This document shows, piece by piece, positions 7,810 through 34,654 of a DNA stretch of 34,654 bases. Source of the stretch: Burkholderiales bacterium (lineage in GTDB: Bacteria; Pseudomonadota; Gammaproteobacteria; Burkholderiales; Casimicrobiaceae). Location: the NCBI GenBank assembly GCA_025925475.1, contig JAICLP010000004.1, positions 1-34,654 on the forward strand. The letters run 5' to 3'. The notes under the pieces were generated by a model. That model did not search any database. It was not told the DNA's origin and worked only from the letters and a program-made list of their open reading frames with translations. A program made the translations under genes and the position numbers. Position 1 is the first letter of the stretch. Every line of letters starts with the position of its first letter.

Positions 7810-8580
7810 ATGATCGACCGTTCTCCCCCGTCGTTTGCGCGACGTTTCTGGCCACTCGTCGCGTTCGGCTTCGCCGGCGTCGCGTCGTTGCCGCTCGCGA
7901 TGCTGCCCGCCTTGCGGGTCCTCGTGCGTAACGGTTACGCAGCGGGAATGTCCTTGGGCGAACTCGCCGCGCTGTCCCTGATCCAGCCGGCGCTGCTCTT
8001 GGTTGCGGGTGCTGCCGTCGGGGCGACGCTCGCGCCGGGGCTTGGCTTGACGTCGCATGTAGCGCGGGTGAACGTCCATGGCCGGTTCGTGAAGGAGCTG
8101 CCGCTTGCGATCGCCAGCGGCATGGCGATCGGCATCGCGATCGCCGGGCTCGACTTCGCGCTTTTCCAGCATACGGCGCTTGCGCGGCCGGCCTCCATGC
8201 GCGCGATCGCAGGCGGCCTGATCGGCGGCGTTCTCTACGGCGGACTCGCCGAGGAGATCATGATGCGCTGGGGCCTGATGTCGTTCGTCGCGTGGCTGGG
8301 CATGCGCTTGTTTGCGCGGAACGCTGCGACGTTGCCCGCATCGATCGGCGTCGCAGCGATCGTCATCGTCGCATTGCTTTTCGCGGCCGGCCATCTGCCG
8401 GCGGCCGCGATGACGGCGCCGCTCACCTCGAACGTCGTCGCGCGCACGCTGCTGCTGAACGCGGTCGCGGGGCTTCTGTTCGGCTGGCTGTTCTGGCGCC
8501 GCAGCCTGGAGTCGGCGATGGTCGCGCACGCGAGCGTGCACGTCGTGTTCGCCGTCGCGCAGACGCTCGGGTGGAGGTAA
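7810..8580 (+). CDS. CPBP-family intramembrane glutamic endopeptidase-like protein
   Basis: Multi-TM; EExxxR-like motif GGLAEEIMMRWGL, then LLFAAGHLP and AGLLFGWLFWRRSLESAMVAHASVHV. Confidence 0.8.
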   Translation: MIDRSPPSFARRFWPLVAFGFAGVASLPLAMLPALRVLVRNGYAAGMSLGELAALSLIQPALLLVAGAAVGATLAPGLGLTSHVARVNVHGRFVKELPLAIASGMAIGIAIAGLDFALFQHTALARPASMRAIAGGLIGGVLYGGLAEEIMMRWGLMSFVAWLGMRLFARNAATLPASIGVAAIVIVALLFAAGHLPAAAMTAPLTSNVVARTLLLNAVAGLLFGWLFWRRSLESAMVAHASVHVVFAVAQTLGWR

Positions 8581-8589
8581 AACCTTAAC

Positions 8590-8635
8590 GGGGTCGGAGA
8601 CGAATTTTCAAGTTCGAAAATTCGTCTCCGACCCC
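8590..8635. repeat. Repeat family A, copy 1: perfect 20-bp inverted repeat, possibly a bidirectional terminator/REP element
   Basis: ggggtcggagacgaattttc (8590-8609), loop aagttc, gaaaattcgtctccgacccc (8616-8635). Between convergent stops at 8580 and 8644. Confidence 0.9.
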
Positions 8636-8643
8636 ATCAAGGT

Positions 8644-10818
8644 CTATGCCTTGATGAACGCCTGCTTGCCGCCGAGCCAGCGATCGAGGTGCTTCGCCGC
8701 AGCCGCAGGATCGCTTTGCAGCAGCGCATCGGCGGCATCGCGCGCCTGTTCGATCAGTGCGACGTCGCGCTCGAGATCGGCGAAACGCAGCAGCGGCATG
8801 CCCGACTGTCGCGCACCGAGGAATTCGCCGGGACCCCGGATCACGAGATCCTGACGCGCGATCTCGAAGCCATCGGTCGTCTCGTAGATCACCTTCAGGC
8901 GCTGCTTCGCGGTGTAGGTCAACGGCTCCTCGAACAGCAGCACGCAGGTGCTCTCCGCCGCGCCGCGACCGATGCGCCCGCGCAGCTGATGCAACTGCGC
9001 GAGGCCGAAGCGCTCCGCATGCTCGATGACCATGATCGACGCGTTCGGCACGTCGACGCCGACTTCGATCACCGTGGTCGCGACGAGAACCTGCAACTCG
9101 CCGCGCACGAACGCATCCATCGTCGCCGCCTTCTCGTCGGGCTTCATCCGGCCATGCAGCAAGCCGACTGCGATGCCGGATGCGGCGAACGCCTGCGTGA
9201 GCTCCGCGTGCAGCGCGACCGCGGTCTGCAGCTCGAGCTTTTCCGATTCCTCGATCAGCGGGCACACCCAGTACACCTGCCGGCCTTGACGTCCCCCCAC
9301 GGTTGCGCCTTGCGCCGCTGCGCTGTCCCCCGTGAGGGGAGAGTTCGCGCCTTGGGACGGCGCGGCGGCGCGCTCGCGGCACGCCTTGCCGACCCACTCG
9401 ATCATCTCGGCGCGCCGCTTCTGACTCACGAGACGGGTCGTCACCGGCGTGCGCCCGGGCGGCATCTCGTCGAGCATCGACACGTCGAGGTCGGCGTAAA
9501 ACGTCATCGCGAGCGTGCGCGGAATCGGCGTTGCGCTCATCATCAGTTGATGCGCTTCGGCGACGCCCTTGTCACGCAACGCGAGCCGCTGCGCGACGCC
9601 GAAGCGATGCTGCTCGTCGACGATCGCGAGACCGAGGCGCGGCATCGCGACACCTTCCTGAAACAGCGCGTGCGTGCCGATGGCGAAAGGCGCCTCGCCG
9701 CTCGCGAGCGCCTCGATCGCCTTGCGCCGCTTCTTCGCCGGCAGGGATCCCGAAAGCCACGCAATCTCGACGCCGACATCGGAGAGCCAACCGTGCAGCT
9801 TGCGCAGATGCTGCTCGGCGAGGATTTCGGTGGGCGCCATGAACGCGACCTGCTTGCCGCTTTCGATCGCCTGCAATGCGGCGAGCGCTGCGACGATCGT
9901 CTTGCCGGAGCCGACGTCGCCCTGCAGCAGGCGCTGCATCGGCATCGCGCGGCGAAGGTCGTGCGCGATCTCGCGCCACACGCGCTCCTGTGCGCGCGTC
10001 AGCTTGAACGGCACGCGCTCGAGCAGAGACTTCGTCAATGTGCCGTTGCCGCGCAGAACAGGCGCACGCCGCGACGCGCGCGCCTTGCGATGAGCCTTGA
10101 GCGACAGCTGTTGCGCGAGCAGCTCGTCGAACTTGAGCCGCGTCCACGCCGGATGCGTGCGCGCATCCAGCGCGCGCTGCGTGAGCGCGTTCAGGCGCGG
10201 TGGCGGCGCGTGCAGGAAGCGCACGGCGTCCGCGAACTTCCACAGGCCGCGCCGGCGAACCAGTTCGTCGGGAAGCGTTTCCTCCGTGCGCGCAACATCG
10301 GCGATAAGCGCGCGTGCCGTGAGTTTGCGCAACGCGTCCTGCGACAGGCCGGCCGTGGTGGGATAGACCGGCGTCAATTGCTCGGGCAGCGCCTCGTCGT
10401 CGGCGACGACCCTGAACTGCGGGTGCACGACCTCCGGACCGAAATAACCGGCGCGCACGTCGCCGAAGACGCGAACCCGCGCACCGGGCTTCAGCGACTT
10501 CTGATGGCTCGGGTAGAACGAGAAGAAGCGCAGCACCAGCGACGCGTCGCTGCGCTCGTCGCGAATCAGGCAGACGAACTGTCGCCGCGGCCGATACTGG
10601 ATCTCGGCGCTCTTGACGATGCCCTCGGTCTGCATCGTTTCGTCGACGCGAACATCGCGAAGCGGCACGATTCGCGTGTGGTCCTCGTAGCGAAGCGGCA
10701 GATGCAGGACGAGATCCTCGTCGCGCAGGACGCCGATCCGTGCGAGCTTGTCGGCGAGGGTATTGCGGGCAGCGACCGATTTGCGGCGCATCGACGCGAT
10801 GGCCGCGTCAGCAGGCAT
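8644..10818 (-). CDS. recG: ATP-dependent DNA helicase RecG
   Basis: RLLQGDVGSGKTIVAALAAL, FMAPTEILAEQH, VDEQHRFGV, MSATPIPRTLAMT, VGLLHGRMKPDEK, ATTVIEVGVDVPNASIMVIE, QLHQLRGRIGRG. Likely start MPADAAIASMRRKS at 10818. Confidence 0.96.
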   Translation of the reverse strand: MPADAAIASMRRKSVAARNTLADKLARIGVLRDEDLVLHLPLRYEDHTRIVPLRDVRVDETMQTEGIVKSAEIQYRPRRQFVCLIRDERSDASLVLRFFSFYPSHQKSLKPGARVRVFGDVRAGYFGPEVVHPQFRVVADDEALPEQLTPVYPTTAGLSQDALRKLTARALIADVARTEETLPDELVRRRGLWKFADAVRFLHAPPPRLNALTQRALDARTHPAWTRLKFDELLAQQLSLKAHRKARASRRAPVLRGNGTLTKSLLERVPFKLTRAQERVWREIAHDLRRAMPMQRLLQGDVGSGKTIVAALAALQAIESGKQVAFMAPTEILAEQHLRKLHGWLSDVGVEIAWLSGSLPAKKRRKAIEALASGEAPFAIGTHALFQEGVAMPRLGLAIVDEQHRFGVAQRLALRDKGVAEAHQLMMSATPIPRTLAMTFYADLDVSMLDEMPPGRTPVTTRLVSQKRRAEMIEWVGKACRERAAAPSQGANSPLTGDSAAAQGATVGGRQGRQVYWVCPLIEESEKLELQTAVALHAELTQAFAASGIAVGLLHGRMKPDEKAATMDAFVRGELQVLVATTVIEVGVDVPNASIMVIEHAERFGLAQLHQLRGRIGRGAAESTCVLLFEEPLTYTAKQRLKVIYETTDGFEIARQDLVIRGPGEFLGARQSGMPLLRFADLERDVALIEQARDAADALLQSDPAAAAKHLDRWLGGKQAFIKA
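9288..9375 (-). repeat. Repeat family B, copy 1, located in frame inside recG
   Basis: Minus strand: gagcgcgcc-gccgcgccgtcccaa-ggcgcgaac-tct-cccctcacgggggacagcgcagcggcgcaaggcgcaaccgtggggggacgtc. Aligns with copies at 30858 and 33297. Confidence 0.75.
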
Positions 10819-10853
10819 GTCGGAAGGACGACGCCTGCTCGGCTTTATGATCG

Positions 10854-11195
10854 ATGGCTGACATACCCCCGCTTTGTCAGCATGCAACACGTTACTTTCA
10901 TGAACGTACGTCTCGAGTCCAACCGTTTTTCGAGAGCAAATCCGCAAAGCATGGCAGGAACATCTCGGACGTCGAGGTGACGGACGTTTCCAAAGATGGA
11001 TTCTGGCTTCGCCTTGGCCGGGAGCGTTCGCGCGTCGCGTACGCGGACTTTCCCTGGTTTCGAGACGCGCCGCTCAGCAAGGTCCTCCATATTACGAGGC
11101 CGCATGCCGACTCGTTGCGCTGGCCGGATTTGGACGTCGATCTCGCGATCGAGCCGATTCGCCATCCCGAGCGGTTTCCCCTCGTTTACCGTTGA
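10854..11195 (+). CDS. DUF2442 domain-containing protein
   Basis: SAKHGRNISDVEVTDVSKDGFWLRLGRERSRVAYADFPWFRDAPLSKVLHITRPHADSLRWPDLDVDLAIEPIRHPERFPLVYR. Start codon uncertain. Confidence 0.75.
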   Translation: MADIPPLCQHATRYFHERTSRVQPFFESKSAKHGRNISDVEVTDVSKDGFWLRLGRERSRVAYADFPWFRDAPLSKVLHITRPHADSLRWPDLDVDLAIEPIRHPERFPLVYR

Positions 11196-20651: not shown

Positions 20652-20703
20652 GCACCCCTCACCCCATCCCTCGCCCCGTTTGCGGGGCAGAGGGCGCGAC
20701 AGG
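20652..20703 (+). repeat. Repeat family C, copy 3
   Basis: cacccctcaccccatccctcgccccgtttgcggggcagagggcgcgac; hairpin gccccg-tttg-cggggc; in the divergent spacer between the SBP and GAF genes. Confidence 0.7.
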
Positions 20704-30857: not shown

Positions 30858-30935
30858 GTCAGTCCCGCCGGACCGCCCCAAGGGACTGACCACGCCCCCT
30901 CGGGGGCAGCGAGCGAAGCGAGCGTGGGGGTCGTC
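30858..30935 (+). repeat. Repeat family B, copy 2
   Basis: gtcagtccc-gccggaccgccccaa-gggactgac-cac-gccccctcgggggcagcgagcgaagcgagcgtgggggtcgtc; perfect 9-bp first stem, second hairpin gccccc/gggggc. Confidence 0.88.
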
Positions 30936-32249
30936 TCATCCTATCCTTGTTTCGATCGCGACAGCGCGTCCCTTCGTCGCCTCGACATGCGATCGCGCGT
31001 AACGATCGGGCGACAGCGCGGCGATCGGAATCGAGGTCGGCTCTCCGGACAACGCCTGTGCGATCAGCGTCCCGGTGATCGGCGCGAGGCTCACGCCCAT
31101 CATCGCATGACCGGTTGCAGCGGAAAGGTTCGCATAGCGCGCGAAGCGGCCGATGTACGGCAACCCATCGGGCGAGCACGGCCGCAGGCCGGTGCGAATC
31201 GTCGCGCTCGCCAGCACGTCCGGCGTCATGTCGGGAAAATAGCTGCCGATCGATTTGACGATGCCGCGCACGCGCGCGTCGTCCACCGTTTCGTCGTTGC
31301 CGGTGATCTCCATCGTGCCGCCAAAGCGCAGCGTGCCGCCCATCGGCGTCACCGCGGCGCGCGCTTCGCTCAAGATCGCGCAGGTGCGCATCGTCTGCGC
31401 CGGCTTCTCCACGGTGAGACTGTACCCCTTGCCGGCTTGCATGGGCAGCGACAGGCCGAGCTTGCGCGCAAGCGACGACGACCAGATGCCCGCGCAGAGC
31501 ACGAACTCGTCGGCCGTGATGCTGCCGTCGCCCGTCTCTACCGCTGCGATCCGCGCACCGTCGACGCGAACGCTGCGAACTTCGACTCCATGGCGCAACT
31601 CCACGCCGATGCGCTTTGTTTCATCGCGTAGTGCGGACATGAGTCGCGCGGGAACGAGACGCGCGTCGCGTGGAAAATGGATCGCCCCGGCGACGCTCGT
31701 CCGGATATCGGGCTCGATCTCGCCGACATCCTTGGCAGACAAAACGTTCGCGGGCATGCCGAGGTCGCGCGCGAACTTCGCGACCCGCGCTTCCTCCTCG
31801 AGCGCGTGCTCCGTGCGGCACAGCACGAGCATGCCGCTCTCGACGAAGTCGAACCGATTGCCCCACTGCGCCGCCCATTCTTCGTAGCGTGCGCGACTGG
31901 CGAGATGCAGGTCGCGCAGCAGCGGTGCCGCGCGCGCGACGTGCTCCTTCGTGCACGCGCGCCAGAATTTCCAGCCCCAGTCGACGAGATCCGCGCTCGC
32001 GCGAAGCTTCAGGTGGAACGGGCTTTCGGGATCGAGCATCCAGCGCAGCGCCAGCGCCGCCATGCCCGGGCTCGCGAGCGGCACGAAGTGGCTCGGCACG
32101 ATCATGCCGGCGTTCGCGTAGGAACAGCCTGCGTCGCGATCAGCAGCATCGCGCTCGACGACGGTGACGCGATGGCCTCTGCTGACGCACGCGTGCGCCA
32201 CCGCGAGGCCGATGACGCCGCCACCGATGACGACGATGCGCTTGCTCAT
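30936..32249 (-). CDS. FAD-dependent D-amino-acid dehydrogenase (DadA-like); by context D-hydroxyproline dehydrogenase
   Basis: MSKRIVVIGGGVIGLAVAHACVSRGHRVTVVERD...CSYANAGMIVPSHFVPLASPGM...GLRPCSPDGLPYIGRFARYANLSAATGHAMMGVSLAPITGTLIAQALSG. Confidence 0.92.
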   Translation of the reverse strand: MSKRIVVIGGGVIGLAVAHACVSRGHRVTVVERDAADRDAGCSYANAGMIVPSHFVPLASPGMAALALRWMLDPESPFHLKLRASADLVDWGWKFWRACTKEHVARAAPLLRDLHLASRARYEEWAAQWGNRFDFVESGMLVLCRTEHALEEEARVAKFARDLGMPANVLSAKDVGEIEPDIRTSVAGAIHFPRDARLVPARLMSALRDETKRIGVELRHGVEVRSVRVDGARIAAVETGDGSITADEFVLCAGIWSSSLARKLGLSLPMQAGKGYSLTVEKPAQTMRTCAILSEARAAVTPMGGTLRFGGTMEITGNDETVDDARVRGIVKSIGSYFPDMTPDVLASATIRTGLRPCSPDGLPYIGRFARYANLSAATGHAMMGVSLAPITGTLIAQALSGEPTSIPIAALSPDRYARSHVEATKGRAVAIETRIG

Positions 32250-32281: not shown

Positions 32282-33277
32282 TCATGACCGCTCCCTCTCC
32301 CCGCAAGCGGGACGAGGGTTGGGGTGAGGGGCATTCGTCGACACGATCCCGTCACGCAGCGGATCGTCGTCGTCGAAGATCAGCGTCGACTCGGCGGTCA
32401 CGTACGCGCTGCCGGTGATCCGCGGCAGCACGCGCCCTCGCTCGGCCGGTGCATACGACGCTTCGAACACGGTGCCGATGACGCTCTCCTGCCGCCACGT
32501 CGCGCCTGGCTCGAGCTCGCCGCGAGCGGACAGGCACGCGAGCTTCGCGCTCGTCCCCGTTCCGCACGGCGAGCGGTCGTACGCGTCGCCCGGACACAGC
32601 ACGAAGTTGCGCGTCCCCTTCGCCGTTCCCGCGAGCGGTTCGTACACCTCGACGTGATCGATTTCGGCGCCGTCGTCACCGCGAATTGCCTGCGCATCGA
32701 GGCGTGCCCGCACCGCCCGTGAGAACGACGTCAGACGCTCGACGTTCCGGGGCACGATGGCGATGCCCGGCGACTCGACGAGAAAGAACCAGTTGCCGCC
32801 CCATGCGACATCGCCCGTCACGACGCCATGGCCGGGCACTTCTACCGTCACATTCGCCGCGTGCCGATAGCTCGGCACGTTCGCCACCGTGACGCGATGC
32901 CGATCGTGCAGCTCGACGGTAACGACACCGACCGGCGTCTCGAAGCGATGCACGCCCGGTGCGATGCGACGAAGATGCGCGAGCGTCACCGCGACGCCGA
33001 TCGTCCCGTGGCCGCACATGCCGATCACGCCGACGTTGTTGAAGAAGATGACGCCGGCCGCGCATGCGCGGTCGACAGGCTCGCACAACAGTGCACCCAC
33101 GATCACGTCCGAGCCGCGCGGCTCGTTGATGATGCCGGAGCGAAATCGATCGAAATCGCGGCGGAAGCGCTCGCGCCGCGTGGCGAGGTCGTCGTGCCCG
33201 AGATCGGGCCCGCCTTCGACGACGACGCGCGTCGGCTCGCCGGCGGTATGCGAATCGATGACGCGAACGGTCTTCAT
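32282..33277 (-). CDS. 4-hydroxyproline 2-epimerase (proline racemase family)
   Basis: [26 protein letters not shown]; both catalytic Cys motifs (GMCGHGTIG and [10 protein letters not shown]); [14 protein letters not shown]-terminal [17 protein letters not shown] comes from repeat C4. Confidence 0.93.
32283..32336 (-). repeat. Repeat family C, copy 4, forming the 3' coding end of the epimerase
   Basis: Minus strand: aatgcccctcaccccaaccctcgtcccgcttgcggggagagggagcggtca. Confidence 0.75.
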
Positions 33278-33296: not shown

Positions 33297-33374
33297 GACG
33301 GCCCCCACGCTCGCTTCGCTCGCTGCCCCCCGAGGGGCACAGTCAGCGGCTTGGCGCGGCCCGGCGCCGCTGAC
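33297..33374 (-). repeat. Repeat family B, copy 3
   Basis: Minus strand: gtcagcggc-gccgggccgcgccaa-gccgctgac-tgt-gcccctcggggggcagcgagcgaagcgagcgtgggggccgtc; perfect 9-bp first stem. Confidence 0.88.
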
Positions 33375-33415
33375 GCTCGCTGTCGCCACGCCGCGCAGCA
33401 TGGCAAGATTCCGGC

Positions 33416-34642
33416 ATGGAAGCTTTTCTCTTTTCCGGCGGCCGCTTCCTCGACCCGCGTCTGCCCGAGCTGCGCGACGGCATCGACGTGCTCGTCGAGG
33501 GCGATCGCGTCCGCGAAGTGTCCGATCGGCCGATCGCATCGCAGGCGGCGACGCGCATCGACCTGCGCGGGCGCACGCTGATGCCCGGCCTCATCGACGC
33601 GCATGTCCACTTCTTCCTCGCCGAAGTGAACCTGGCGTCGCTCGACGGCATGCCGCTGACGCTGCTGACGGCGAAGGCCGCCGCGGCCGCGCGCCGCATG
33701 CTGATGCGCGGCTTCACCACGGTACGCGACGCCGGCGGCAGCGATTACGGCATCAGGACGGCGATCGAGGAGGGCCTCGTCGACGGCCCGCGCGTCTTCA
33801 TCGCCGGCATGCCGATCAGCCAGACCGGCGGCCATGCCGACTTTCGCCGGCGCACGCAGTCCGATTTCGAGTGCTCGTGTTGCTCGGGCTTGGCGTACAT
33901 GAGCCGCATCGCCGACGGCGTGCCCGACATGCTGAAGGCCGTGCGCGACGAGCTGCGCAAGGGCGCCGATCAGATCAAGCTGATGGTGTCGGGCGGCGTC
34001 GCATCGCAGAGCGATCCGCTCGAAAGCCTGCAGTTCCGCGTCGACGAGATCGAGGCCGCCGTCGAGCAGGCGACGAGCTGGGGCACGTACGTGATGGCAC
34101 ACGCGTACTCGGCGGCGGCGATCGGACGCGCCGTCGACTGCGGCGTGCGCACGATCGAGCACGGCAACCTGATCGACGAGCCGGTGGCGCGGCGCATGGC
34201 CGCGCGCGGCGCGTACATCGTGCCGACGCTCGTGACCTACGAATGCCTGCAGCGTCGCGGGCCCGATTACGGCCTCACGCCCTACAGCCTGCAGAAGAAC
34301 CGGATCGTGCTCGAGGCGGGATTGCGTTCGCTCGAGCTATGCCGCGCGGCCGGCGTGCGCATCGGCTTCGGCACCGACCTGCTGGGCGCGCTACAGGACG
34401 ACCAGTGCAACGAATTCCTGATCCGCGCGCAGGCGATGCCGCCGCACGAGGTGATCCAGTCGGCGACGATCGTCAACGCGCAGATCGTCCGCCGCGAAGG
34501 CGAGCTGGGCGAGCTCGTCCCAGGCGCGTACGCCGACCTCCTCGTCGTCGACGGCGATCCGTACCGCGATCTCGGCGTGCTGCAGGACCAGGGCGCGCAC
34601 ATCGCGGGCATCATGAAGGGCGGGCGCTGGTACAAATCATGA
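33416..34642 (+). CDS. Metal-dependent amidohydrolase (cog1228-like; candidate Xaa-Pro dipeptidase/prolidase)
   Basis: LMPGLIDAHVHFFLAEV (HxH), DQIKLMVSGGV (Lys), YVMAHAYS, RTIEHGNLID, GFGTDLLG (Asp), ADLLVVDGDPYRD. Confidence 0.9.
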   Translation: MEAFLFSGGRFLDPRLPELRDGIDVLVEGDRVREVSDRPIASQAATRIDLRGRTLMPGLIDAHVHFFLAEVNLASLDGMPLTLLTAKAAAAARRMLMRGFTTVRDAGGSDYGIRTAIEEGLVDGPRVFIAGMPISQTGGHADFRRRTQSDFECSCCSGLAYMSRIADGVPDMLKAVRDELRKGADQIKLMVSGGVASQSDPLESLQFRVDEIEAAVEQATSWGTYVMAHAYSAAAIGRAVDCGVRTIEHGNLIDEPVARRMAARGAYIVPTLVTYECLQRRGPDYGLTPYSLQKNRIVLEAGLRSLELCRAAGVRIGFGTDLLGALQDDQCNEFLIRAQAMPPHEVIQSATIVNAQIVRREGELGELVPGAYADLLVVDGDPYRDLGVLQDQGAHIAGIMKGGRWYKS

Positions 34643-34654
34643 ATTAATTGCGCC

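Follow-up and report, generated by a model that had tools for sequence, protein, structure and literature searches.

The recG gene of an uncultured Burkholderiales bacterium (family Casimicrobiaceae) contains a stretch of DNA that resembles a dispersed repeat and lies in the reading frame of the helicase. This raises the question of how a structured repeat came to be part of a fork-remodelling enzyme, and what became of the enzyme. The window, i.e. the whole stretch of DNA analysed here, comprises 34,654 nt of contig JAICLP010000004.1, and the source genome is a fragmented 3.37-Mb assembly (456 contigs, 84% complete). We consider it very probable that a repeat unit resembling the Beta-proteobacterial Repeat Element (BRE) inserted in this recG lineage and was tolerated in a disordered turn, with RecG still under selection. 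The recG gene presents the following features:

8644 to 10818, reverse strand: recG coding sequence, with a probable Met start at 10818 and 724 aa including the insert.
9286 to 9372, reverse strand: in-frame insert RAAAPSQGANSPLTGDSAAAQGATVGGRQ of 87 nt (29 codons), delimited by empty-site comparison (spacing of 70 residues versus 41).
9292 to 9371, reverse strand: portion that shares homology with the consensus of the dispersed repeat (85% identity, E 2e-19).
9169 to 9186, reverse strand: site II, the other variable turn of RecG, which precedes VGLLHGRMKP and has near-basal length in the source genome.

The longest mechanical open reading frame of recG (8644-10947, reverse strand) starts at 10947. 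Pfam models for RecG_wedge, DEAD, Helicase_C and RecG_dom3_C all match this frame, and NCBIfam RecG models exceed their cut-offs in two stretches of the product; by these matches, the frame is predicted to encode a complete RecG. The insert RAAAPSQGANSPLTGDSAAAQGATVGGRQ is flanked by GKACRE upstream and by GRQVYWVCPLIEESE (beginning with GRQVYWVC) downstream. Because it measures 87 nt and contains no stop in frame, it adds 29 residues to RecG without a frameshift, resulting in a peptide that is rich in small residues and near neutral in charge. A preliminary description of this DNA had proposed an addition of about 28 residues that coincides with the repeat and keeps the frame and all downstream helicase motifs. 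The insertion, its coincidence with the repeat and the preserved domains all hold, and the length is corrected to 29. That description had also given only about three residues for the equivalent interval in Escherichia coli RecG, which agrees with the 693-residue RecG chain 9wm0_A, of solved structure, where only three residues lie between AC and GRQAYWVC.

A naturally long, ancestral loop of Burkholderiales RecG, with a merely coincidental likeness to the repeat, would predict a segment of similar length in related proteins, the finding that the preliminary description had named as refuting an inserted repeat. One genome of another family (G063) indeed has 22 additional residues at the position of the insert. 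However, the interval from PPGR to EES spans 41 residues in the measured RecG loci, which range from relatives in the same genus over Alcaligenaceae to Legionella, with only four exceptions: the source genome (70), G032 (81), G036 (79) and G063 (63). Moreover, the site is empty in those same-genus relatives that were read directly, and the DNA of the insert belongs to a dispersed family. The 41-residue spacing elsewhere and the short form in 9wm0 indicate that the insert is derived and lineage-specific. These gene comparisons confirm the recG copy as a lineage-specific insertion, and the empty sites refute the ancestral loop, leaving it a negligible probability.

The AlphaFold model of this RecG (mean pLDDT 79.9) has 1gm5, also a RecG, as its nearest fold (E 1.1e-43). 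Insert residues 485-510 are modelled with a pLDDT below 50 and without secondary structure, in helicase domain 2, between a helix (466-481) and the first strand of that domain (514-518). In two genomes from another genus of the family (G032 and G036), 38-40 extra residues are found at the same turn. The G032 insert consists of other dispersed repeats, which recur more than 40 times in the G032 and G036 genomes, and part of it also matches inside the G036 recG. The presence of unrelated dispersed repeats in one turn indicates that this loop has been repeatedly permissive and, together with the modelled disorder, strongly supports the permissive loop suggested earlier. Site II is, like the turn that holds the insert, a helix-to-strand turn of the same domain in the model, and is longer in several species, where EES and HGR are separated by up to 78 residues instead of about 31. 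In one recG (locus L049 of G014), the turn before VGLLHGRM is filled by a long insert that looks like a repeat and contains a stop in frame, which may represent a broken recG or an assembly error.

Damage to recG, or a junction created by the assembly, could also produce the observed arrangement, the open frame then being luck. But for one stop at its edge, the repeat can be read through in all six frames, the assembly is fragmented, and the site II insertion of G014 contains a stop, all of which leave some room for such an origin. Yet the sequence on either side of the insert comes from one gene, its order and frame unchanged, and two other species independently carry insertions in the same turn. 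Outside the insert, comparison with G017 gives a dN of 0.091 and a dS of 0.537 (dN/dS about 0.17), empty relatives giving similar values, and the amino-acid changes unique to the insert lineage and to the empty relatives are nearly balanced (34 versus 30 and 33 versus 37). This ratio and the symmetric substitutions point to continued constraint, and damage or artefact is therefore very improbable. These substitution patterns give no sign of relaxed selection on RecG, and we infer that its activity is unaffected by the insert. Rather than a defect, the recG copy is predicted to be a translated, floppy loop of 29 residues, one of many protein-coding copies in this genome.

When searched against its own genome, the insert stretch returned at least 40 matches and the consensus at least 48, with 180 first-look candidates, which places the likeness between insert and repeat far beyond chance. 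The consensus is 84 nt long with a GC content of 77%, and units of the family measure 84-87 nt. Tandem arrays with a period of 86-88 nt contain two to three units in the source genome, G005, G002 and G008, and more in G262; given this period, the recG insert corresponds to one repeat unit. Under a strict threshold, the repeat is present in 12 of 250 genomes of the order, and records of the family were found in Variovorax, Rhodoferax, Acidovorax, Azoarcus and Burkholderia. The window contains two copies besides the one in recG:

30865 to 30930, forward strand: second copy, of a divergent subfamily with a short H3, just past the stop of the ORF at 30936-32249 (reverse strand).
33302 to 33371, reverse strand: third copy, between the divergent ORFs at 32282-33277 (reverse strand) and 33400-34647 (forward strand).

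Within the unit, three hairpins can be placed on the recG copy as follows:

9347 to 9371, reverse strand: hairpin H1, GCGCC...GGCGC, intact in the recG copy, with covariation over 60 copies.
9326 to 9340, reverse strand: hairpin H2, TCCCC...GGGGA, intact in the recG copy.
9305 to 9318, reverse strand: hairpin H3, GCGGC...GGCGC, with one mismatched pair in the recG copy.

At least 61 copies were sampled in the source genome, and covariation was taken over 60. For H1, 97.2% of cells are paired (shuffle maximum 87.7%) through CG, GC, TA and AT pairs, and for H3, 99.3% (shuffle maximum 90.8%) through GC, CG, TA and AT pairs; H2 is nearly invariant. The unit is thus predicted to form three hairpins, two of which (H1 and H3) show compensatory changes. 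Pairing maintained through two-sided changes indicates that the folded nucleic acid is what selection or copying acts upon. Taken by itself, the consensus had a folding energy no better than that of shuffled sequences (z -0.19); single-sequence energies are uninformative at high GC, and the case for the hairpins rests on covariation. A search of four repeat loci against Rfam gave no match at the gathering score and one chance-level hit (E 0.52). The six frames of the unit differ in the peptides they would encode: sense frame 1 gives a net charge of 0, antisense frame 0 one of -2, and the remaining frames charges of +4 to +9.

Matched by description, this repeat is most likely the BRE, because size, GC content, tandem habit, taxonomic spread and intragenic copies all agree. 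BREs (Hot et al. 2011, PMC3110155) are described as elements of about 75-91 bp with a GC content of 63.7-78.9%, occurring in tandem arrays with variable unit numbers in Bordetella, Polaromonas, Rhodoferax, Acidovorax and Azoarcus. The 84-nt consensus, its 77% GC and the 86-88 nt period fall within or close to this range, the arrays here likewise vary in unit number, and the records in Variovorax, Rhodoferax, Acidovorax, Azoarcus and Burkholderia match a spread over families such as Comamonadaceae and Rhodocyclaceae. Some BREs lie wholly inside coding sequences and mobility was suspected, with no function assigned by the authors; hairpin covariation, a preferred frame, docking onto start codons and recG do not feature in the passages of that account considered here. 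In behaviour, the repeat resembles the Rickettsia palindromic elements (RPEs), which are also dispersed palindromes that have entered unrelated genes in frame and persist as protein sequence (PMC10969869, PMC3733652, in the passages considered). The comparison is one of behaviour; RPEs belong to another bacterial class with another host lifestyle, and the unit here is shorter. Intragenic GTAG/CGTC REPs (Di Nocera et al. 2013, PMC3733652) offer a further parallel, since the relevant passages place them often in DNA-repair genes and often at protein N-termini, and report same-site insertions in recB of two Xanthomonas species that recall the RecG turn; recG is not mentioned there. These REPs are single palindromes of 20-40 bp with a tag at one end, whereas the unit here has three hairpins and neither tag; the letters CGTC do occur at the right end of the recG copy and are absent from the consensus. 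The literature passages on BREs, RPEs and REPs contain no account of a fixed reading frame, of start-codon docking with downstream starts excluded, or of convergent filling of one RecG turn by unrelated repeats.

Recent mobility of the repeat, as proposed in the preliminary description, holds only in part. Empty orthologous sites of recG, ridA, an NDH-2-like gene and others support mobility in a broad sense, and we infer that it caused the insertion. The claim that it was recent finds no support, because the recG copy has drifted to 85% of the consensus with one H3 pair lost, and the nearest empty relatives already lie at a synonymous divergence of about 0.5. Neither a transposase nor a target-site duplication was identified for the repeat; direct repeats in the flanks (CATGATC in L013 and ACCATGA in L029, by eye) are suggestive and are confounded by remnants of tandem units. 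Were the repeat of REP type and copied by a RAYT (Y1) transposase, this would account for the size, hairpins, tandem arrays and intragenic copies, which resemble those of REPs (PMC3733652, as far as its relevant passages go), and RAYT-type genes are present in 10 of 22 genomes of the genus. However, neither the source genome nor G020, which contains at least 49 copies, has a match to PF01797, while G006 has one RAYT gene and zero repeats; the repeat is absent from all 10 RAYT loci examined, and the consensus lacks the GTAG tag. Since gene presence within the genus does not follow copy number, RAYT was rejected as the mobiliser, and an origin of this kind is improbable.

A structured repeat fixed as coding sequence had been regarded as unusual. 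Within the source genome it is not, because many copies are coding, and repeats in DNA-repair genes were already reported in the passages of PMC3733652. Flank codon usage served only as a guide for classification, and gene identities were then verified with family models. In 16 sampled cases, the repeat forms the N-terminal segment of the downstream protein in the same frame as in RecG; within a three-unit array (L016), indels shift the phase along the way. For 15 of these 16, no start codon lies between the repeat and the conserved core, and for FabF, IspG, BioD and RidA none lies inside the repeat either, so that translation has to begin at or before the repeat. This differs from N-terminal REPs, for many of which a downstream start was suspected (PMC3733652, in the passages considered). 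The ridA junction is precise, with ATGAGC directly followed by AACATC in the G017 orthologue, and one unit between ATGAGC and AATATC in the source genome. Unextended orthologues also exist for FabF, MlaF and the NDH-2-like protein. By inspection, the left border reads ATGA or GTGA in 26 of 61 copies. Two proteins of the source genome, which by eye look like a solute-binding lipoprotein and a PilQ-like protein (L019 on G000:C407 and L002 on G000:C53), have the repeat segment immediately before the signal peptide, with its KRR or QRRK residues taking the n-region position.

Internal in-frame copies, of the type found in RecG, are present in the source genome in PcaG, the NDH-2-like protein (two units), an APH-DUF6285 protein, an enolase-superfamily protein and an Lhr-like helicase, all checked by family models. 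Family models likewise identified internal copies in MutY, PrmA and an aminotransferase of G008, and in aconitase (AcnA) and CobQ (at two sites) of other Burkholderiales, and an annotated Fic-family protein of Rhodoferax antarcticus carries one as well. Near-neutral frames are used by 11 of the 13 internal copies listed, a tendency that comes from a convenience sample and not from a census; MutY uses a basic frame, and the enolase-superfamily copy is frame-shifted. Exclusive use of near-neutral frames was rejected as a strict rule, since the frame in MutY of G008 is strongly basic. That mutY (L208) has one copy between PWQ and TRDPYRIW and a second upstream, both in the strongly basic frame, making MutY a second DNA-repair protein with the repeat. 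In L156 (G000:C146), the copy at 1195-1277 joins an APH-type kinase and DUF6285 in one frame, possibly as the product of a gene fusion that the repeat brought about. The cobQ case (L192 of G111) consists of two antisense copies, in frame, at two sites of a single gene.

Taken as a mechanism, a unit of a dispersed, hairpin-forming Beta-proteobacterial repeat (most likely the BRE) entered recG in the lineage of the source genome, in a turn of helicase domain 2 that leads from a helix to the first strand and tolerates additions, while RecG stayed under selection. Many other proteins have also gained the repeat, mainly at the N-terminus, with a start codon at its left border, and more rarely within internal loops. 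Copies would persist mainly where the frame yields a bland peptide, suggesting a survival filter on peptide chemistry, with MutY of G008 and the frame-shifted enolase-superfamily copy as exceptions. A broader reading, which we put forward tentatively, is that the repeat acts as a portable coding leader: as a structured mobile element, it would preferentially enter at or just after start codons, often at the ATGA overlap of operons, and supply a hairpin-bearing, 29-codon N-terminal extension in a fixed frame, internal copies such as that in RecG being rarer by-products. Alternatively, the unit could be a useful module and not a tolerated passenger, its start-adjacent hairpins tuning translation of the next gene in operons, with a regulatory role of the peptide or the hairpins in recG too. 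The bias in orientation (39 of 61 copies on the coding strand of both flanking genes versus 12 antisense to both), the many copies that begin with an ATG or GTG overlapping the upstream stop, and the hairpins kept through compensation would all fit such a role. The orientation bias, however, could also arise if harmful insertions are lost, the species of the genus differ in copy number (from 0 to at least 48), repeat-free orthologues are common, and recG shows no sign of benefit; we therefore regard a useful module as unlikely.

Insertion into a tolerant RecG turn, which we favour for this locus, provides a concrete bacterial case of short repeated DNA turning into protein, and is an entry point to a wider pattern of repeat-derived protein segments in Burkholderiales. 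One sequence can be traced through the junctions of operons, through N-termini and through internal loops, and sister species provide the empty sites. The RecG turn, independently filled by unrelated repeats, is a place where a fork-remodelling helicase naturally takes up insertions. Should the N-terminal pattern extend to Burkholderiales as a whole, repeat-derived tags are part of many annotated N-termini in this order, which would bear on gene annotation and on the role of the BRE.

Further repeats are found elsewhere in the window. A 28-bp inverted repeat at 8582-8643 (GGGGTCGGAGACGAATTTTC and its complement, with a 6-nt loop) separates the stop of the ORF at 7810-8580 from the 3′ end of recG, and has the look of a shared terminator. 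Inverted copies of a second dispersed repeat, CCCCTCACCCCATCCCTCGCCCCG, are located at 20655-20687 and 32299-32331, and are similar in look to the repeats occupying the RecG turn of G032.
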